Source: a marine actinobacterium PHSC20C1 (lineage in GTDB: Bacteria; Actinomycetota; Actinomycetes; Actinomycetales; Microbacteriaceae). Taken from it: a stretch of 64,000 bases of DNA. The notes below the pieces were generated by a model. The model worked only from the letters and a program-made list of their open reading frames with translations, did not search any database and had not been told where the DNA came from. The stretch lies in the NCBI GenBank assembly GCA_000153145.1, contig CH672415.1, positions 889,208 to 953,207 of the forward strand. Direction: 5' to 3'. Below are positions 7,165 through 16,242 of this stretch, piece after piece; within the stretch, counting starts at the first letter, position 1; every line of letters starts with the position of its first letter. The translations under genes and the position numbers were made by a program.

Positions 7165-8643
7165 GTGCTCAATTCAAGTGAATCCTCCACCGCCGGCCCC
7201 AGTGGTCTCGATCCGACGGAACTTGAAACGACCCTCAAAGTGTTGAAGCAGATGGCCGAGATCGACGACGAACACCCCGACTTTGTGACCGTTCGGAGAG
7301 CCACGGCAGCGATGTTCAAGGCGGTCAAGAAAGAGCGCCGGCTCGAAAAACGCGCCACAATTGCCGATGCCGACCGTCAAGTAATCGCGGCTACCGCCAC
7401 CGGTGCCTCAGATCGCATTGACGACGAGACCCGCGGCATCCCCATCTCTACAAGCACTACGACGCCGTCGGCTGGCGAACTGATCAAAGCGCGGCCGTGC
7501 TACATCTGCAAGCAGCCGTACACGACCGTTGATTCCTTCTACCATCAGCTGTGCCCAAGCTGCGCAGCCTTCAACCATGCCAAGCGTGACGCGCGCACTG
7601 ACCTCACTGGCAAGCGCGCTCTACTGACCGGCGGCCGTGCAAAGATCGGCATGTATATTGCGCTTCGATTACTGCGGGATGGCGCGCACACGACCATCAC
7701 AACGCGGTTTCCCAGGGATGCCGTTCGTCGGTTCTCGAGCCTGCCCGATTCTGCCGATTGGTTGCACAGACTGCGCGTCGTCGGAATCGACCTCCGCGAT
7801 CCCGCTCAGGTTATCGGTCTAGCCGAGTCTGTTGCCGCTCAGGGCCCACTCGACATCCTGATCAACAATGCGACCCAGACTGTACGCCGCTCTCCTGGTG
7901 CGTATCAGCCGCTCGTCGATGGCGAAACGGCACCATTGCCTGACGGTCCCCTGCCCGAACTCGTGACGTTTGGCCACACCAACGATCCGCATCCGCAGGC
8001 TCTCGCCCAGTCGGTGTCAGCACACCCCATTCTCGCGGCGGCCGCAACACGCGCAGAAGAACTAACCGAGCAGGCAATGACGGCGGGCTCGAGTTCGCTT
8101 GAGCGTCTCGCCGCTGGCACCGCGATCGACGCGGGCGGTCTTGTTCCCGACCTCGACTCGATCAACTCGTGGACTCAGCACGTGGATCAGGTCGATCCCC
8201 TCGAAATGCTCGAAGTTCAACTCGCCAACACCACGGCACCGTTCGTGCTCATCTCGATGTTGCGCCCCTCGATGGCCGCCTCCACCGCCCGTCGCAAATA
8301 CATCGTGAACGTATCGGCGATGGAAGGGGTATTCGGTCGCGGCTACAAGGGCCCAGGGCATCCGCACACCAACATGGCCAAGGCCGCCGTGAACATGCTG
8401 ACGCGCACGAGTTCTCGGGAGATGTTTGAGAGCGACGGCATTCTCATGACGAGCGTCGACACCGGCTGGATTACGGACGAGCGCCCCCACCCCACAAAGG
8501 TGCGGTTGGCCGAAGAAGGTTTTCATGCGCCTCTCGACCTCGTCGATGGAGCAGCGAGGGTCTATGACCCAATCGTGCGCGGCGAGGACGGTGAAGATCT
8601 GTTCGGCATCTTCTTGAAGGACTACGACAAGAGCTCATGGTGA
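7165..8643 (+). CDS. Atypical short-chain dehydrogenase with N-terminal zinc ribbon
   Basis: 492 aa from GTG 7165, five bases after TAGAAT (7154-7159); an in-frame upstream ATG at 6985 lies inside the EamA gene and is rejected. Residues 1-105 are polar and helical. Residues 112-133 form CYIC...CPSC (two CxxC pairs 14 residues apart), a probable zinc ribbon. A Rossmann domain follows, with LLTGGRAKIG for the cofactor and a NNATQTV strand. The usual Ser is present (NVSAMEG), but the catalytic Tyr-x-x-x-Lys is replaced by TNMAK (Thr402, Lys406), and a nearby GYKGP tyrosine (394) is the only obvious substitute. An insertion of roughly 100 residues separates NNAT from the Ser motif. Redox substrate unknown. 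It overlaps the next small gene by 7 bases (ATGGTGA). Confidence 0.8.
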   Translation: MLNSSESSTAGPSGLDPTELETTLKVLKQMAEIDDEHPDFVTVRRATAAMFKAVKKERRLEKRATIADADRQVIAATATGASDRIDDETRGIPISTSTTTPSAGELIKARPCYICKQPYTTVDSFYHQLCPSCAAFNHAKRDARTDLTGKRALLTGGRAKIGMYIALRLLRDGAHTTITTRFPRDAVRRFSSLPDSADWLHRLRVVGIDLRDPAQVIGLAESVAAQGPLDILINNATQTVRRSPGAYQPLVDGETAPLPDGPLPELVTFGHTNDPHPQALAQSVSAHPILAAAATRAEELTEQAMTAGSSSLERLAAGTAIDAGGLVPDLDSINSWTQHVDQVDPLEMLEVQLANTTAPFVLISMLRPSMAASTARRKYIVNVSAMEGVFGRGYKGPGHPHTNMAKAAVNMLTRTSSREMFESDGILMTSVDTGWITDERPHPTKVRLAEEGFHAPLDLVDGAARVYDPIVRGEDGEDLFGIFLKDYDKSSW

Positions 8644-8876
8644 CCCCGGCAGAATTTCTCACGGCGACTACGAGTGGAACAAGGGTCGTCGTACGTCACC
8701 TCATTGACGACGGTCGCGCGACCGATTCACTCGGCTACTTTCACCTCTCCGATGAGACCCACTGTGTTGTCGCGACCAAGCGCGGGCTCGAAACTATCGA
8801 GCTTTCGCGGGTGATCGCAGCGAAGGAAGTGCCACCACCTCCAGCGCCGCGCCCTCGCACTACTTCTTCGGAGTAG
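8637..8876 (+). CDS. Small SH3-like protein (Rv0428c-type N-terminal domain), 79 aa
   Basis: The core GTRVVVRHLIDDG...TDSLGYF...CVVATKRGLETI and the ending AAKEVPPPP resemble the SH3-like domain found at the N-terminus of actinobacterial Rv0428c-type GNAT acetyltransferases. Here it stands alone: no acetyltransferase domain follows. Its start overlaps the stop of the upstream SDR gene, so the two are translationally coupled. Its 3' end overlaps the convergent agpS gene by 17 bases. Function unknown. The family resemblance is from memory of the conserved pattern and should be treated as moderate. Confidence 0.65.
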   Translation: MVTPAEFLTATTSGTRVVVRHLIDDGRATDSLGYFHLSDETHCVVATKRGLETIELSRVIAAKEVPPPPAPRPRTTSSE

Positions 8877-10719
8877 CTTTCGCCTGTGCTTTCTTGACCG
8901 GGGTTTTCGTAGCCGCAGCCTTCTTTACGGGAGCTTTTTTAGCAGGCGTCTTCTTTACTGGCGCTTTTTTAGCAGGCGTCGCAGTTGCTTTCTTGGCCGG
9001 AGCAGTTTTCGCCGCCGGAGCCTTCTTTGCCAGCAGAGCATCCACGCCTTCGGCTGGAGTGATCTTGCCGGGGTTGAAGTTGCTCTGGGGATCAGCCGCA
9101 CCAAGGAGGCCGCGCACGAGCTTGAGGCCCTCGGACGAGATGTCTTGTTCAAGCCAGGGCGAATGCTCAACGCCAACACCGTGGTGGTGCGAGATCGTTC
9201 CGTCGTTGTCAACGAATGACTGTTGGATGGCGCGCTTCACGGTGTCGTATTCGCCAAGCGGGTCGTCGCCGAAGGTGAACGCGAACGTGAAGTAGAGGCA
9301 GGCTCCCGAATGGTATGAGTGCGACATGTGCGACATGATCCAGCCCTTGGTGCCGAGCGAATCGTAGGCGTCTTGGGCTGCCTTATGCGCGGCAGAGTGA
9401 AGCTTCACCACTGATGACCATGGTGTTGCTGTTTCTGAAACGTCACCCGCTGCCCCCATGTCGAGGAGGAAGTCGCGCAGATAGGGAGTGTCGAATTTCT
9501 TCTGGTCGTAGAGGATGCCCGGTCCCTTACCAACGCCCATTCCGCCGTGCTTGGCGACAATCTTGTCGACCAGTGCTTTCTGGCGCTTGGCGTGCGAAAC
9601 GCTGCCCTCAAAGCCGATGAACGAGAGGCAAATGTCGTCGAGATTCCAGCCTTTCGACTTCATGATCTTCGGCAGGGCCGTCTCGGCGCTGAACTTGCTG
9701 ATGCCCGTACGAGTTTTGCTCGTCGCGAGCGAAAAACCTGTCTCTTTGGCGTCAGAGATGCGGGTGATAGATGGCGCAGCATCCGATTCAGCAATCGCCT
9801 GCATTGCAGCAATTCCTGACTTCCAGTTGCGGAAGAAGTAGGCGTAGACGTCTCGCTTGGCCGGAATACGGTGAACTTGCACCGTGACCTCAGTGATTAC
9901 GCCAAGGCGGCCCTCGCTGCCAAGAATCATTTCGCGAACGCTTGGCCCACTCGAAGTACTCGGAAGCGGGCGAAGTACGAGAACGCCGCCGGGGCGAACC
10001 ATTCGCAATCCGCGAGTGATATCCGCAATGTCGCCGTACTTGTCTGACTGCATTCCAGAGGACCGTGTCGCTACCCAACCGCCAACAGTGGAGTGCGTGA
10101 AGCTGTCAGGAAAGTGTCCAATCGTCCAGCCCTGAGCGTTGAGCTGCTCTTCAAGGTCGGGGCCCTGCGCTCCCGCCTGAATGCGCGCGAGACCGGCGTC
10201 CTTGTCTATAGCGACTACCTTGCGCAAGCGTCCAAGATCGAGGGAGATAACGACGCGTTTCTCGGCGGGCATCGGCTCAAGGCTTCCCGCGATGTTGCTG
10301 CCGCCACCAAAAGGAATGATGACTGAATTCGCTGCGACCGCGGCATCCACAATCGCTTGCACTTCGGCTTCATCCGCCGGATACACGACAACATCTGGGC
10401 TTCGCTTGATTGCATTACTGCGGATTCGTACGAGGTCGCGCAACCCCTTGCCGTAGGTATGGATGACCCGAACCATGTCGTCGCGAGTGACATTATCTGC
10501 ACCGACGATCGCCGCAAGCTGTTTGGTGAATGCCGCCGTTGCTTTGCTCTTGGGAACGTCAAGCTCGTCGAACGACGGCTCTCCAGCACGAGTGGCAGAG
10601 CCAAGGTCGAGACCAACCGCATACTCCACAAAGGGAGCAAAACCAGGCTTGTCTTCGTGGTGGAAACCCACGCCCTCGTTGCCCCAACCCCACCACTTCA
10701 TGTGCTTGACAGAGGTCAT
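8860..10719 (-). CDS. agpS: Alkyldihydroxyacetonephosphate synthase-like FAD enzyme with lysine-rich tail
   Basis: 619 aa. The predicted reaction is exchange of the acyl chain of acyl-DHAP for a fatty alcohol, making the ether bond. Residues 8-17 (KWWGWGNEGV) match the opening of eukaryotic AGPS. The FAD-binding PCMH domain spans roughly 105-290, with PFGGGSNIAG (136-145), PDSFTHSTVGGW (204-215) and LGSEGRLGVITE (266-277). The C-terminal half has SYHSGACLYF (Tyr469, equivalent to the catalytic AGPS Tyr) and the triple His 511-513 (SHHHGVG). Residues 565-619 form a histone H1-like tail of KKAP/AKK repeats, absent from classical AGPS. It is last in a three-gene operon, its ATG overlapping the plsC stop (ATGA). 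A simple glycolate-oxidase-type FAD enzyme is less likely given the Tyr/HHH motifs. Confidence 0.88.
   Translation of the reverse strand: MTSVKHMKWWGWGNEGVGFHHEDKPGFAPFVEYAVGLDLGSATRAGEPSFDELDVPKSKATAAFTKQLAAIVGADNVTRDDMVRVIHTYGKGLRDLVRIRSNAIKRSPDVVVYPADEAEVQAIVDAAVAANSVIIPFGGGSNIAGSLEPMPAEKRVVISLDLGRLRKVVAIDKDAGLARIQAGAQGPDLEEQLNAQGWTIGHFPDSFTHSTVGGWVATRSSGMQSDKYGDIADITRGLRMVRPGGVLVLRPLPSTSSGPSVREMILGSEGRLGVITEVTVQVHRIPAKRDVYAYFFRNWKSGIAAMQAIAESDAAPSITRISDAKETGFSLATSKTRTGISKFSAETALPKIMKSKGWNLDDICLSFIGFEGSVSHAKRQKALVDKIVAKHGGMGVGKGPGILYDQKKFDTPYLRDFLLDMGAAGDVSETATPWSSVVKLHSAAHKAAQDAYDSLGTKGWIMSHMSHSYHSGACLYFTFAFTFGDDPLGEYDTVKRAIQQSFVDNDGTISHHHGVGVEHSPWLEQDISSEGLKLVRGLLGAADPQSNFNPGKITPAEGVDALLAKKAPAAKTAPAKKATATPAKKAPVKKTPAKKAPVKKAAATKTPVKKAQAKATPKK
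8921..8980 (-). repeat. Two 30-bp direct repeats coding the KKAPVKK-type tail of AgpS
   Basis: Units 8921-8950 and 8951-8980 differ at only two positions and encode repeated lysine/alanine/proline decapeptides. Flanking sequence (8881-9030) is further degenerate copies. Such a tract can expand or contract by slippage. Confidence 0.85.
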
Positions 10720-11411
10720 TTCGTTCCCTTCGGAGTTGCTCTTGGCATCGGGTGAATTGTCTCGTGCAATTGGCGCACGGTTTCAGATAGTCGAGTTGAG
10801 AAGGCTTCGGGAGTCTCAGAATCACGGCGGTACTGCAATTCGCCAAAGACTACCGTGACGGGGAGTCGACCGCGTTTGGGCCAGTTATAACCGCGCGGCA
10901 TTGCTACAGAAGCTCCAACCAACGCGATCGGCAAACAGGGCACGGAGGTGTTTATCGAGAGTGCCGCAGCGCCAGGCTTAAACCGCGAAAGAACTCCAAG
11001 GCGAGTCCGGCCGCCTTCGGGAAAAATGAGCAATGGCACACCGCGATCCAACAATCTGCGCGATGCTCCCGCTCGCTTGCCTTCGGCATTTCGCTCGATT
11101 GCAAAGGCGTTGAAGAACAGTGTCGTGAGCCACTTGCGCCACCACACTTCAAAGAAGTAGTCGGCAGCCGCACCCGCAGCCAGATAGCGAGAACGCTTAC
11201 GTGGGAGTGCCCCAATGATGAGCGGAGCATCGAGATGGCTCGAATGATTCGCGACCGCGATGAATGGACCCTCGTGGGCATCGATGTTTTCGCGCCCCTT
11301 AACATCGACTTGAACGAGTGACCACACGAGTGGTTTCAACAGCCCGCGCTGCGCCACAAATCTGAAGCACGCCATCGTCGGCGAGGTGAATCGGTCGAAG
11401 GGCTGCGTCAT
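10716..11411 (-). CDS. PlsC-type lysophospholipid/glycerophosphate acyltransferase
   Basis: 231 aa. It has the acyltransferase motif H-x4-D (NHSSHLD, His56/Asp61) and block III FPEGGRT near residue 130. Upstream are N-terminal hydrophobic segments for membrane association. It transfers an acyl chain to a glycerol-phosphate backbone: either DHAP, to make the AgpS substrate, or the sn-2 position of an alkyl-glycerol phosphate. The gene lies between an SDR and agpS, with 4-base overlaps (ATGA) on both sides, so the three are co-translated. That placement is the main reason for assigning it to ether-lipid rather than general phospholipid synthesis. Confidence 0.85.
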   Translation of the reverse strand: MTQPFDRFTSPTMACFRFVAQRGLLKPLVWSLVQVDVKGRENIDAHEGPFIAVANHSSHLDAPLIIGALPRKRSRYLAAGAAADYFFEVWWRKWLTTLFFNAFAIERNAEGKRAGASRRLLDRGVPLLIFPEGGRTRLGVLSRFKPGAAALSINTSVPCLPIALVGASVAMPRGYNWPKRGRLPVTVVFGELQYRRDSETPEAFSTRLSETVRQLHETIHPMPRATPKGTK

Positions 11412-12223
11412 GTCGTCGTCGTGTCTCTCACGCCATGAGGTTCGGAGCCCTCGTCACTTCGGCTTGAAGAAATTTTGGCCGAGATCCAACGAATTGTGCG
11501 CCGCGGTAAATGTCGAGCAAACCATCCGATGGCTCGGTACCGAACAGTAGGTATGGATATGACTTTGCCGCGTGCTGAATCGCGCAGTGCGCCCAAGACA
11601 AGGGTCGGTGCGTCAATCCACAGGAACGAAGGAATAGAACCGGTGCGGATGCCCGCCCGCTCGTGGAATTCGGTGATGACCCATCCCGGCATCAGCGCCG
11701 TCACAGTAACTCCTGTATTGCGCAGTTCTACCGAGAGTCCTTGGCTGTATGAGGCCACCCACGCTTTGATCGCGGAATATGACCCCATGGTGACGAGACC
11801 TGCAATGCTCGACACGTTGATGATGCGGCCGCTGCCGCGTTCGCGCATGGCTCGGCCTGCTGTGCCCGCCAGGATCAGTACGGCCCGACACATAACGTCA
11901 AAGGCATGTTCATGCACCGATGCTGAGTCAACATCGGTCAATCGGGCGTGTACGCCGAAACCTGCGTTGTTGACGAACAGGTCAATGGGCTTGGCGCGAT
12001 CTGCCAGCCGGTGTGCGACTCTCAGTACGTCGTCGCGATCAGCGAGGTCGGCGCTAATCGTCTCTACGGTGACACCAAACTCGGTGCTCAAACGCGAAGC
12101 GGTGGCGTCGAGCCGAGTTTCGTTACGCGCTACCAAAACAAGGTCGCTGCCATCCCGGGCAAGTTGTCGCGCAAACTCTGCACCGATTCCAGAAGTGCCA
12201 CCGGTTATTAGCGCAATTGCCAT
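11408..12223 (-). CDS. Short-chain dehydrogenase/reductase, candidate acyl/alkyl-DHAP reductase
   Basis: 271 aa from ATG 12223. A classical SDR: cofactor motif TGGTSGIG (8-15), NNAG (NNAGFGV), catalytic Ser in INVSSIAG and YSAIK (Tyr-x-x-x-Lys). The start is taken where the Rossmann fold begins; the longer reading to 12409 runs through the divergent promoter region. TAGTCT (12231-12236) sits seven bases upstream of ATG. First gene of the SDR-plsC-agpS operon. In ether-lipid synthesis a ketoreductase is needed to turn alkyl-DHAP into alkyl-glycerol 3-phosphate. This SDR is the only candidate in the cluster, but the assignment is inference. Confidence 0.82.
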   Translation of the reverse strand: MAIALITGGTSGIGAEFARQLARDGSDLVLVARNETRLDATASRLSTEFGVTVETISADLADRDDVLRVAHRLADRAKPIDLFVNNAGFGVHARLTDVDSASVHEHAFDVMCRAVLILAGTAGRAMRERGSGRIINVSSIAGLVTMGSYSAIKAWVASYSQGLSVELRNTGVTVTALMPGWVITEFHERAGIRTGSIPSFLWIDAPTLVLGALRDSARGKVISIPTVRYRAIGWFARHLPRRTIRWISAKISSSRSDEGSEPHGVRDTTTT

Positions 12224-12333
12224 GACGCCAAGACTACGGCAAGCACCCGGCGTCGATTGGGTTTTTGCGGCAGGGTCGCAACTAGAATCGAAGCAAGTTG
12301 CTGTCACCACACTGCGTCGAGCGGAGGAAAACA
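12224..12333. promoter_or_regulatory. Divergent promoter region between the two lipid operons
   Basis: 110 bases between the SDR-plsC-agpS operon (minus) and the ferritin-like/reductase operon (plus). For the minus side, TAGTCT at 12231-12236 is a -10 box seven bases from the start. For the plus side, TAGAAT at 12283-12288 is a good -10, giving a leader of roughly 40 bases that ends in the ribosome site GGAGG (12323-12327) before ATG 12334. Sharing one short control region suggests co-expression of both operons. No clear operator palindrome is visible. Confidence 0.55.
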
Positions 12334-13134
12334 ATGCCGAGAAGTCATGAAGTTGCCCTCGACGATATGTCGATTCCCGCACCAGACTTTGATGTGCGAG
12401 CGTATGCAAACGATGCGCAGGCCAGCTACCGCGATTACCTCAATTTGGAGGCGTACCGGGCGCATCCTCTGAGTGCAGATACTCTCCGCATTCTGCGCTA
12501 CCTACAGGTTGTCGAGCGCGGCACAATGACGCACTTGCGCAGTGTGCTTGTCACCGCAACCCATAAAGATGCGCGAGTTACGGCGTTCCTCATCTCATGG
12601 GCATTCGAAAAGTATTGGATTGCGGACGCCTTGGATCAGATCATCCGCGCACATGAGGGTGGCGAAGCTGACCGCGCACCGTTTCGTACGCCAGTGGAGC
12701 GTACGATTCGCGAATCCATTGTCGCCAATATCATTGGGCTCCCCATGATCGCGGTTCACATGACTTTAGGCGCCGTCGATGAGTGGCTCATGCAGGCCGC
12801 CTACCGTCGCCTCGTTGAGTTGGATCCCAACCCGCAACTCATCGATACGGTAACTCGATTCCTCGCCACCAAGGGCCGGCAGCTTGAGTTCTTCGAGGGC
12901 CAAGCTCGCAACCGCCTCTCGACATCGACTCGCGCGCAAAAAGTTACCCGCCGGCGGCTAGCCAAAACTCCCTGGCCCATCGGAGCACGCGCTGAGCCCC
13001 GCGAGAACACCGAGTTCTTTTTCGGACACCTCTTTAGCAGTCACCCTTCCACCATCGTTGAGATCGACGCCCTCGTTGACTCTCTCGCTGGCCAAAAAAA
13101 TCTCAACCTGATGAAACGGGCCGCCGCCTTATGA
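12334..13134 (+). CDS. Ferritin-like protein with degenerate diiron site (pseudo-enzyme paralogue)
   Basis: 266 aa, all-helical, clearly paralogous to the protein at 15448-16242. Matching segments include LRYLQVVE versus LRYMADVE, VTATHKD versus VTPSHKE, and GAVDEW versus GAANEW. Of the six carboxylate/His iron ligands inferred in the paralogue, only Glu61 and Glu150 remain. The first ExxH becomes Lys93/Ile96, and the second ExxH becomes Gly181/Leu184. It therefore probably cannot bind two irons and may act as a structural or regulatory subunit. The start is ATG 12334 with a GGAGG site at optimal distance; the in-frame ATG at 12298 has no such site. Its stop overlaps the acyl-CoA reductase start (ATGA), so the two are translationally coupled. 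Confidence 0.82.
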   Translation: MPRSHEVALDDMSIPAPDFDVRAYANDAQASYRDYLNLEAYRAHPLSADTLRILRYLQVVERGTMTHLRSVLVTATHKDARVTAFLISWAFEKYWIADALDQIIRAHEGGEADRAPFRTPVERTIRESIVANIIGLPMIAVHMTLGAVDEWLMQAAYRRLVELDPNPQLIDTVTRFLATKGRQLEFFEGQARNRLSTSTRAQKVTRRRLAKTPWPIGARAEPRENTEFFFGHLFSSHPSTIVEIDALVDSLAGQKNLNLMKRAAAL

Positions 13135-15440
13135 CGACCATTAGAGCCCTCACTACCGAACACGTCTTTCTTACGGGAGCGACGGGGTTTGTCGGCCAAG
13201 CGATCCTCGAGCGACTGCTTTCCAGCCATCCAGAGACCCGAATTTCTATTCTGGTGCGAGGAAAGGGTGCAACCACGGGCGAGGGGCGACTGACTAACCT
13301 CATGCGCAAACCGGTGTTCGCACAGTGGATGGAGTCACTCGGCAAGGAGCAGGCTCTTGCCGAAGTCGCGCGGCGAGTCACCGTCATTGAGGGCAGCCTC
13401 ACGGATGTCGGCACGCTGCCGGACGACATCGATATTGTCATCCACGGAGCATCTACCGTCTCGTTTGATCCGCCGATCGATGAAGCCTTCGACACCAATG
13501 TCGGCGGAGCAACAGGTATTTACACCGCGCTGCTCGCGAGCAAGTCTCGCCCGCACGTTGTACATATTTCCACTGCCTATGTCGGCGGCATACGAAAGGG
13601 CATCGTCCCCGAGGCATCGCTTGTTCACAACGTCGACTGGCGAGCCGAATATGAGGCTGCGCGCACTGCCCGCACTCGTGTTGAGTTCGAATCGCGCCAG
13701 CCAGAAGCCCTCCGTGCACAGTTGACGGCGGCGAAAGCACGACATGGCAAGGCTGGCCCGCAAGCAGTCGCACAGTTCACTGAGGCGGCACGAGCGGAGT
13801 GGGTGCACGATCGACTTGTCGATTATGGGCGGATGCGCGCCGAAAGTCTGGGGTGGACCGATGTCTACACCCTCACGAAGGCGTTCGCCGAGCGGGTAGC
13901 CGAAGAGATGTGGGCCCAGGCCGGGCATCGCTTGTCCGTAGTGCGACCGTCAATTATTGAGAGCGCACTCCATCACCCCTTCCCGGGCTGGATTGACGGT
14001 TTCAAGGTCGCTGATCCGTTGATCCTTGCGTATGGTCGCGGTCAGTTACCTGACTTTCCCGGCCTGCCTGACTCGATCCTTGACGTCATCCCGGTTGACT
14101 TTGTCGTCAACGCAACGCTGGCCGCGGCAGCAGCTAAGGCTGATCCGAAGGCGCCCAGGTATTACCACGTGAGTTCTGGCGCTAGCAATCCGCTGCCGTT
14201 TCATCGCATGTACGAGAACGTCAACGCGTACTTTACTGCGAATCCGTTGCCTGCCGAAGATGGAGAAATTAGCGTTCCGCTGTGGCGCTTTCCCGGCGGT
14301 CAACGGGTCGAACGGGCACTCGTTAAGCGCGAACGTCAGGCAGCCCGTGCTGAACGAGTAATTACGCGCATGCCGACGACTCCGCGAACTCGCCGCTGGC
14401 TAGACGAGGTGAAGAGCGGCCAACATCAGCTCGAGGTTTTGCGCGCCTTTACCAATCTCTACCGCGCCTATGTGCAAACCGAGATCATCTTCGACGATGC
14501 CAACACGCGCGAACTATTGGCCTCGTTGCCTAAGAAAACTGCCCACAGCGCCCGATTCGATGTCACCGAAATTGACTGGGAAAACTACTTTCAGCAGGTA
14601 CATTTTCCGGCAATCACGACGCTTACTCGCGCCTTCGCAAATCGCCCGGCAGCAAAGACGCGCACCGCAAAGAAGCTGCCCGAGAGAACCGATGTCGTCG
14701 CGGTTTTTGATCTCGAAGGTACCGTCGTCGACTCGAATCTTGTAAAGCAGTACCTTTTGCTGTGGGGCGGCACCGTGCCTCGTGCCAAGGTCCTGCACGA
14801 TCTCGCCAACTTCACGTTCTCGCTGCGCAAGTACATGCGCGCTGAGCGCCGGGACCGTGGCGAGTTCATCCGAACCTTCATGCGTCGCTACGAAGGCTTC
14901 AAAATTGCTGAGATCGAGCGGATGGTACGCGGCAGTTTTGGCCGAGCCATGATGCGTCGTGTGATGCCGGATGCGCTGCGTCGAGTTCAGGAGCATCGTG
15001 ACGCTGGCCACCGCACCATCCTGGTGACGGGCACGATCGATCTCATGGTGACGCCGTTTTTGCCGTACTTTGACGAGGTCGTTGCCGGGCGGATGCACGA
15101 ACGCGACGGGATTCTCACAGGCTTCCTGGCTGATCCACCTTTGGTCGATGAGGCACGAGCGGCTTGGTTGCGTCACTACGCCGACCAGAATGGCTTCAAT
15201 CTCACACAGTCGTACGGGTATGGCGATAGCCACGCTGACCTGATGTGGTTGCAGCTTGTTGGCAACCCGAGTGCGGTCAACCCCGACGTGAACTTGTACA
15301 AGCACGCTCAAGAGAAGCGCTGGAATGTGCTCGATTGGAAGCGTCGCTCGCCCAACTCCCGCATCCCGCGCCCTCGAGACGCGGCCGCTGCGACACAGGA
15401 AGGAGATGGACACAGCTCGACGCCGTCGAGCCAGTCCTGA
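13131..15440 (+). CDS. Fatty acyl-CoA reductase (NAD-binding 4) fused to HAD-IB phosphatase
   Basis: 769 aa. Residues 1-370: extended SDR of the male-sterility/FAR type, with GATGFVG (16-22), HISTAYVGG (145-153) and YTLTK (246-250, catalytic Tyr/Lys). It should reduce acyl-CoA to aldehyde or alcohol with NADPH. Residues 371-515: helical linker similar to the FAR C-terminal region. Residues 520-750: HAD-IB phosphatase with motif I FDLEGT (Asp527; second acidic residue Glu, as in ThrH-type phosphatases), motif II LVTGT and motif III GDSHAD. The HAD substrate is unknown; a glycerol-phosphate lipid is plausible. The gene starts by overlapping the ferritin-like gene and ends 7 bases before the next ferritin-like gene. 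An antisense open reading frame inside it is a shadow. Confidence 0.87.
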   Translation: MTTIRALTTEHVFLTGATGFVGQAILERLLSSHPETRISILVRGKGATTGEGRLTNLMRKPVFAQWMESLGKEQALAEVARRVTVIEGSLTDVGTLPDDIDIVIHGASTVSFDPPIDEAFDTNVGGATGIYTALLASKSRPHVVHISTAYVGGIRKGIVPEASLVHNVDWRAEYEAARTARTRVEFESRQPEALRAQLTAAKARHGKAGPQAVAQFTEAARAEWVHDRLVDYGRMRAESLGWTDVYTLTKAFAERVAEEMWAQAGHRLSVVRPSIIESALHHPFPGWIDGFKVADPLILAYGRGQLPDFPGLPDSILDVIPVDFVVNATLAAAAAKADPKAPRYYHVSSGASNPLPFHRMYENVNAYFTANPLPAEDGEISVPLWRFPGGQRVERALVKRERQAARAERVITRMPTTPRTRRWLDEVKSGQHQLEVLRAFTNLYRAYVQTEIIFDDANTRELLASLPKKTAHSARFDVTEIDWENYFQQVHFPAITTLTRAFANRPAAKTRTAKKLPERTDVVAVFDLEGTVVDSNLVKQYLLLWGGTVPRAKVLHDLANFTFSLRKYMRAERRDRGEFIRTFMRRYEGFKIAEIERMVRGSFGRAMMRRVMPDALRRVQEHRDAGHRTILVTGTIDLMVTPFLPYFDEVVAGRMHERDGILTGFLADPPLVDEARAAWLRHYADQNGFNLTQSYGYGDSHADLMWLQLVGNPSAVNPDVNLYKHAQEKRWNVLDWKRRSPNSRIPRPRDAAAATQEGDGHSSTPSSQS

Positions 15441-15447
15441 TTACCTC

Positions 15448-16242
15448 ATGGCATTTGATATTGATCGATACACCTCCACCTCGAAAAAGGTTCAGTGGGG
15501 TGACCTAGACTTCACCGAGTTCGAGCGCAACCCCCTGCCAGACGCTACGCTGCGCAGCCTTCGCTACATGGCAGACGTCGAATACCACACCGTCTGTTAT
15601 CTACGGGATTTGCTGGTAACGCCCTCCCACAAGGAGGTCGACGTGAGTGCATTCATGACCATGTGGAATCGCGAAGAGTTTTGGCACGGTGAAGCCCTCT
15701 CCAAGGTGCTGGGTGCACATGACGTGACGCTTGACTATGACGAACTCAAGGCAACCCGATTGAAGCTCGGTTGGAAGGACCGCCTCGATCCCATCAAGCA
15801 GTCGGTACTCGGAAACGTAATCGGTAAAGACTTCATCGCCGTGCACATGATTTGGGGTGCCGCAAACGAGTGGTCTGCGGTTGCCGCCTACAACCGCCTT
15901 GCGGACATGGAAAAACATCCGGTTCTCTCTGAATTGCTTCGAAGGATTGCGAAGCAAGAGGCCCGCCATGTCGCGTTCTATGCCACGCAGGCTCGAGAGC
16001 GACTTGCGAAGAGCAAGAAGGCTCAAGTTCTCGCTCGCCTCGCGTTGAAAGGCGCGTGGGGGCCGGTTGGCTCGAGCATTATGCCGGCAGAAGAGGTCAC
16101 TCATGTCATGGGTCATCTCTTCTCGGGACCGGAGGGTTTGCGCGAGATTCGCAAGCTTGATGAGCACATTTCTCGCATGCCTGGCCTTGAAGGCCTCACC
16201 ATTGTGGAGACCTCCATGAAAAAGTATGGGGTTGCTGCGTAA
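15448..16242 (+). CDS. Ferritin-like diiron protein, candidate lipid oxidase/desaturase
   Basis: 264 aa helical bundle with a complete set of diiron ligands at the expected spacing: Glu45, Glu77-x-x-His80 (EEFWH), Glu141, and Glu171-x-x-His174 (QEARH). This pattern is shared by acyl-ACP desaturases, aldehyde-deformylating oxygenases and other ferritin-like oxidases; overall length fits the smaller members. Start ATG 15448 lies seven bases after the upstream stop and has no strong ribosome site, so translation is probably by reinitiation; the ATG at 15406 has its AGGAG directly abutting and is unlikely. Context (acyl-CoA reductase, AgpS) suggests an O2-dependent step on an acyl, aldehyde or alkyl-ether lipid. 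The exact reaction cannot be read from sequence. Confidence 0.82.
   Translation: MAFDIDRYTSTSKKVQWGDLDFTEFERNPLPDATLRSLRYMADVEYHTVCYLRDLLVTPSHKEVDVSAFMTMWNREEFWHGEALSKVLGAHDVTLDYDELKATRLKLGWKDRLDPIKQSVLGNVIGKDFIAVHMIWGAANEWSAVAAYNRLADMEKHPVLSELLRRIAKQEARHVAFYATQARERLAKSKKAQVLARLALKGAWGPVGSSIMPAEEVTHVMGHLFSGPEGLREIRKLDEHISRMPGLEGLTIVETSMKKYGVAA

Follow-up and report, generated by a model that had tools for sequence, protein, structure and literature searches.

The 64,000-nt stretch of the marine actinobacterium PHSC20C1 analysed here (contig CH672415.1; hereafter the window, whose positions serve as coordinates) carries a block of six genes, agpS, plsC, sdr, ferB, far, and ferA, that with moderate probability encodes an aerobic plasmalogen pathway, in which FerA, together with FerB, would be a soluble O2-dependent 1'-desaturase. 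The host genome is 2.77 Mb, and its FerA shares 97% identity with the protein from Salinibacterium sp. PAMC 21357, which places the host in the Microbacteriaceae. In the proposed scheme, FAR would convert a branched acyl-CoA to a fatty alcohol, PlsC would acylate dihydroxyacetone phosphate (DHAP), and AgpS would exchange the acyl chain for the alcohol to give alkyl-DHAP; SDR would then reduce the ketone, and an acyltransferase would fill position 2. FerA, a diiron enzyme with the acyl-acyl carrier protein (ACP) desaturase fold, would use O2 and outside electrons to insert the 1' double bond, generating the vinyl ether, and FerB, having no usable metal site, might stabilize or tune FerA or hold and present the lipid. 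FerA is the candidate for the 1',2' desaturase because the block supplies an alkyl ether and FerA is its sole candidate O2-using enzyme. We infer each reaction, the order of the steps, and the role of FerB from gene content, domains, ligands, linkage, and joint loss, all of which were computed.

The six genes are a real unit that has been gained and lost largely together. Scanning of GTDB contigs yielded 189 loci encoding a FerA relative, and the locus counts given here refer to the best 80 of the 189. The homologue search for conservation of the neighbourhood, which the sequence-only reading of this DNA had proposed, revealed all six genes in 65 of the 80 loci; the order and orientation were those of the window in 63 and rearranged in two (L042 and L082). 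In this count, extra genes between members, such as those between far and ferA in Subtercola and Labedella, were not taken as breaks. Genes in high-GC (guanine plus cytosine) loci were read by a codon-position score, which is rough. Fifteen loci were without the full set, three of which (L022, L068, and L083) end at contig ends. Carriers of the full block included Microbacteriaceae, Jiangellaceae (Phytoactinopolyspora), and Streptomyces, and one block was located on a 2.35-Mb linear Streptomyces plasmid.

Among 299 Microbacteriaceae genomes, a strong FerA match was found in 94 and cluster-type AgpS in 85, and the latter never occurred without FerA (85/85). With 16 genome entries with weak matches set aside, the Fisher test for this co-occurrence gave p = 6e-65, uncorrected for shared descent. 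FerA was matched in 22 of 27 genomes of the host genus, and only as a fragment in G025. In this congeneric genome the block had been deleted between its flanks, with remnants of only about 24 bases (agpS) and 42 codons (ferA), and the flanking proteins were 91–94% identical over most of their length. Chance clustering was ruled out by the 65 full blocks and the 85/85 co-occurrence. Shared descent alone was also insufficient as an explanation, because the block is patchy within the genus, occurs on a Streptomyces plasmid, and has been rearranged yet kept together in L042 and L082.

AgpS, FAR, PlsC, and SDR are the kinds of enzyme expected for alkyl-ether-lipid synthesis, as the sequence-only reading had held, by their domains and, for AgpS and FAR, also by matches to solved AGPS and FAR structures; the reactions assigned to them are predictions. 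AgpS contained the domain pair FAD_binding_4 (1.3e-34) and FAD-oxidase_C (1.9e-34) in Pfam and resembled solved AGPS over its full length. Its top solved relative was Dictyostelium ADPS (2uuu, E = 2.2e-115, residues 54–553), and peroxisomal AGPS (4bby) matched at 2.9e-80, with glycolate oxidase next at 1.1e-18. A triple-histidine (HHH) stretch, to which AGPS structures assign a role, was kept in all eight of the most frequent variants, which make up 51 of the 55 rows. FAR matched NAD_binding_4 (PF07993, 4.2e-48) and HAD (3.2e-32); its Sterile domain remained below threshold (8.7e-8, 32.7 bits against a cut-off of 35.4), and the match to the solved fatty acyl-CoA reductase 7eoz (residues 11–495, 8.3e-50) spans this region. 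YxxxK was present in 66/66 FAR rows and the glycine motif in 65/66. At residues 526–531, the HAD motif of all 66 aligned FAR proteins read D-x-E, not D-x-D. PlsC matched PF01553 at 1.2e-20, with H-x4-D in 67/67 aligned rows, and SDR matched adh_short at 4.1e-41, with the glycine motif in 66/66. Animals build 1-O-alkyl glycerolipids from DHAP with the same enzyme types (PMC9131029).

FerA gave weak library matches: 22.6 bits for Rubrerythrin (cut-off 22.8), 18.2 for FA_desaturase_2 (PF03405, cut-off 22.7), and a score far under the cut-off for AcsF. The FerA of the window therefore fell short of the Pfam threshold for PF03405, and 41 of 43 members matched this profile with E no higher than 0.01, the lowest value being 3.8e-6. 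Seven candidate ligands (E45, H47, E77, H80, E141, E171, and H174 in the 264-residue numbering) were present in 73/73 rows. In 17 further rows, comprising 14 distant relatives and three AgpS-less family members, six of them were kept in 17/17 and H47 in 16. According to the alignment and the predicted model, the pattern E, ExxH, E, ExxH lies in a four-helix ferritin-like fold, as in plant stearoyl-ACP desaturase and M. tuberculosis DesA2. Searched with a 43-row FerA profile, DesA2 was the top natural solved match (E = 0.0014), and a designed helix bundle outscored it over a short stretch. The AlphaFold2 model of FerA (predicted local distance difference test, pLDDT, 86.7) was nearest to plant acyl-ACP desaturases (7t63, E = 5.4e-4, template modelling score ~0.5), followed by R2-like oxidases. 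Unlike the soluble acyl-ACP desaturases, to which it is ~12–16% identical, FerA has 264 residues and comes with a metal-dead paralogue, and its gene is part of an ether-lipid operon.

FerB is ~34% identical to FerA and evolves faster, as indicated by a mean column identity of 42% versus 74%. Among 15 FerB rows, lysine stood in place of E77 in 14 and arginine in one, E171 was replaced by K in 15/15, and H80 was lost in 15/15; E45 was retained in 15/15, E141 in 13/15, and H174 in 10/15. The FerB model (pLDDT 88.9) had weaker fold matches, the best being an R2-like oxidase (E = 2.0e-2). The sequence-only reading had spoken of a diiron pair, listing its first member as degenerate. Since the ligands are kept in FerA and partly replaced or lost in FerB, the pair is one candidate diiron enzyme with a partner that has probably lost its metal.

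Upon acid methanolysis, vinyl ethers yield dimethyl acetals, and alkyl ethers do not. In Subtercola vilae DB165, the i-16:0, a-15:0, and a-17:0 dimethyl acetals accounted for 17.0, 3.2, and 1.9% (~22% together), and the acids in the same table were saturated except for traces (PMC5945732). The locus from DB165 itself (L041) contained all six genes. Dimethyl acetal totals of roughly 20–29% are given for S. boreus, S. frigoramans, and S. lobariae (PMC5945732), and all six genes were found in two S. boreus strains, other than the measured one, and in an S. lobariae strain (L053–L055). Subtercola acetals were first reported in 2000 by Mannisto et al. (cited in PMC5945732 and PMC7472656) and were confirmed by gas chromatography–mass spectrometry (GC-MS), according to PMC7472656. 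The same paper, from 2020, termed acetals in aerobic Kineococcus surprising and read them as a sign of plasmalogens; there, GC-MS gave the a-15:0 acetal where the MIDI system had called C14:0 2-OH. It also describes the opposite mistake, from another order, where hydroxy acids had been taken for acetals. Because the same MIDI call was corrected in Kineococcus, part of what is named C14:0 2-OH in Frigoribacterium, Frondihabitans, and S. lobariae (10.3%, alongside 9.7% a-15:0 acetal) may be the a-15:0 dimethyl acetal peak. An a-15:0 aldehyde/acetal peak is reported for Frigoribacterium D8 and F. faeni (PMC12823222), and Frondihabitans is reported without acetals. For Agreia, up to 4% of one dimethyl acetal is reported, and an Agreia strain (L085) carries the block.

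The known plasmalogen routes were represented by PF10520 (Lipid_desat) and PF09989, which we take to be markers of CarF/PEDS1 and PlsA, respectively. PF09989 was matched in none of eight block carriers including DB165, and its control was matched in 6/14. PF10520 was matched neither in the host genome nor in the eight carriers nor in any of the 299 genomes, a soft negative, as its controls gave one match, below the cut-off, or none at all. The earlier statement that neither CarF nor PlsA/PlsR was seen thus held for both profiles in the carriers, with the absence of CarF softened by the poor control, which also counts against our reading. PMC9131029 restricts true CarF homologues to a single myxobacterial suborder and Leptospira, and PMC9702350 assigns PlsA/PlsR chiefly to anaerobes and certain facultative groups.

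As far as the alkyl ether, the block has the same kinds of enzyme as the aerobic route known from animals and Myxococcus (FAR1, GNPAT, AGPS, a reductase, and CarF/PEDS1). AGPS-FAR-acyltransferase genes and a HAD gene likewise occur in the elb operon of M. xanthus. Unlike that route, however, the block holds all its genes in one divergent unit without a PF10520 match, and a soluble ferritin-like enzyme would stand in place of the membrane desaturase. The anaerobic PlsA/PlsR route would yield the same lipid class, but it acts on diacyl lipids without O2 (PMC9702350). Among the titles and abstracts listed, none described this cluster or a ferritin-like vinyl-ether enzyme; the lists were of limited length, and most subscription papers and all preprints lay outside their coverage. 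What is new here is a candidate enzyme for the defining step, the logic of aerobic ether-lipid synthesis being already known. We see an even chance that the block represents a third plasmalogen route, unlike CarF/PEDS1 and PlsA/PlsR, that explains aerobic actinobacterial acetals, some of them hidden as C14:0 2-OH.

Several further observations weigh against the plasmalogen reading. The structural kinship of FerA is remote, with a single match below E = 0.001 in the fold search, and no electron carrier for FerA was identified. The DB165 acetals were named by MIDI, which can confuse acetals with hydroxy acids, and two sister species of Frigoribacterium lack the acetal according to PMC12823222. 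Nine family genomes hold FerA without cluster-type AgpS; one (G122) has its block at a contig end, and the other eight hold both FerA and FerB. A genome-wide AgpS search covered the 13 genomes behind named loci, Glaciibacter flavus (L066) lying outside it. AgpS was not found in three named Agromyces genomes and one Agromyces metagenome-assembled genome (MAG), only a 7e-21 match was obtained in Leifsonia Leaf264, and FAR was not found in any of these five. Since this Agromyces-type clade retains FerA/FerB after the loss of AgpS and FAR, the pair can, judging from gene content, have a use outside the ether-lipid pathway. Of 346 genomes sampled across the phylum, 18 outside the family had a distant FerA, and AgpS was matched in 2 of these 18 versus 63 of 346 overall. 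Seventeen distant-FerA neighbourhoods contained no AgpS, FAR, or PlsC and one weak SDR match, and no neighbouring family recurred in more than three of the 17.

In the FerA tree, nine rows of the AgpS-less type formed one clade (99/96) nested inside the AgpS-linked group. They therefore descend from block carriers that later lost the other genes, and an ancestral, unlinked FerA in Agromyces was ruled out. The long-branch warning for this tree covers FerB and several distant rows, and the nine, one of which is Glaciibacter flavus (L066), are not named in it. Because distant FerA mostly occurs without AgpS outside Microbacteriaceae, FerA is best read as an older family recruited by the ether-lipid block. 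In Naasia and four Jiangella genomes, AgpS was located away from FerA; at three such detached AgpS loci, plsC, sdr, and far were present, and FerB and FerA were not found. Jiangella shows no FerB near either FerA or AgpS, which suggests that FerB may not always be needed. Beyond the family, six AgpS loci (five with 36–39% identity and one with 55%) showed no match to FerA or FerB alongside; the 55% locus has a PlsC-like neighbour.

The solitary FerA of distant actinobacteria and the FerA/FerB pairs of Agromyces-type genomes without AgpS and FAR would also suit a pathway whose core genes make saturated alkyl ethers only. FerA/FerB would then modify the lipid chain otherwise, by hydroxylation, internal desaturation, or AGMO-like ether cleavage, and the Subtercola acetals would come from another route or from aldehydes. 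The acyl-ACP-desaturase fold suits an internal double bond equally well. However, the tight FerA–AgpS link (85/85 in the family) argues against this explanation, the DB165 acids were saturated save for traces, and the acetals of Subtercola, near 20–30%, call for a major source of vinyl ethers, and no known one was found. We consider it rather unlikely. The vinyl-ether step of the sequence-only reading is supported by the acetals of Subtercola, including the block carrier DB165, and called into question by the Agromyces-type clade that keeps the pair without AgpS and FAR.

Two other explanations take FerA out of vinyl-ether synthesis altogether. In one, the pair would act against peroxide or oxidative stress in the manner of rubrerythrin and shield oxidation-prone lipids, with no biosynthetic role; this would be in line with the near-threshold Rubrerythrin score and with the place of the pair near flavin reductase and MsrA/MsrB genes in two Agromyces loci. 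But the pair holds a fixed position in a lipid operon, desaturase-like folds outrank any rubrerythrin among the 50 matches listed, and the acetals would be left unaccounted for, so that such a function seems very improbable. It is very unlikely that FAR and FerA form an aldehyde-consuming branch of the aldehyde deformylating oxygenase type, leading to alkanes beside the ether-lipid genes. The Kitasatospora aldehyde-deformylating oxidase 6d9f did come up in the fold search, at rank 47 (E = 0.026), but FerA ranks closer to desaturases, and FAR is a full reductase that matches a solved FAR and belongs with AgpS.

The two overlapping divergent operons of the sequence-only reading, six genes at 8860–16242 around a shared 110-base gap, were recovered with two starts corrected. 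Neighbouring genes overlap by 4 bases at three junctions (agpS/plsC, plsC/sdr, and ferB/far). The sdr open reading frame (ORF) as listed, from 12409, is read as starting too early, and 15325 is probably too early for ferA. With the MAFDI start, whose equivalent is possible in 72 relatives, ferA follows far after 7 bases. No sigma-70-like site was found by a promoter scan of the divergent gap, and a comparison with phage DNA gave no match.

Features of the six-gene block (window positions) and its deleted counterpart in a congeneric genome
Feature	Position	Strand	Remarks
agpS, alkyl-DHAP synthase (flavin adenine dinucleotide, FAD)	8860..10719	-	619 amino acids with Lys/Ala/Pro-rich tail
plsC, acyltransferase; proposed acyl-DHAP and/or lyso-lipid acylation	10716..11411	-	PF01553
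sdr, short-chain dehydrogenase; proposed acyl/alkyl-DHAP reductase	11408..12223	-	adh_short, ATG start
divergent gap, presumed shared control region	12224..12333	.	110 bases; sequence
ferB, paralogue of FerA whose metal site is degenerate; proposed partner subunit	12334..13134	+	
far, fatty acyl-CoA reductase carrying a HAD domain at its C terminus	13131..15440	+	
ferA, ferritin-like diiron enzyme, proposed 1'-desaturase	15448..16242	+	264 amino acids
natural block deletion	L166 (G025), about 10240–10700		scraps of agpS and ferA between conserved flanks

The C-terminal tail of AgpS (8860–9030) weakly resembles histone H1. A small ORF at 8640–8876, read by eye, begins within the stop of an upstream SDR-like gene and overlaps the end of agpS, and G025 has a similar ORF. 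In Subtercola, the far/ferA interval (L041, 7435–9869; also L053–L055, L061, and L069) holds a second PlsC-like gene and a lactate-racemase-N-like gene (Lar_N, 2.4e-28, scored in L041). In Agromyces, ferB-ferA lies near genes for flavin reductase and MsrA in L064 (8679–12872) and L074 (10034–12643), and for MsrB in L064. The lone FerA of Jiangella adjoins a fumarase-looking gene (L070 and L075, about 8390–10816, by eye), and one MAG has a lone second FerA (L044) in addition to a full block on a separate contig (L045). The FerA of an 'Acidobacteria' MAG contig (L059) and of two 'Microbacterium' strains (L020 and L021) sits among other Microbacteriaceae genera in the tree; these three are probably mis-binned or misnamed.

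Detected by FerA in 94 of the 299 sampled Microbacteriaceae genomes, the block makes the plasmalogen question testable in this family. It could explain plasmalogen markers in bacteria where the known plasmalogen genes were not found, and taxonomic fatty-acid tables may conceal plasmalogens. If the proposed role of FerA is true, the desaturation for which people have PEDS1 would also be achieved by a protein of unrelated structure.

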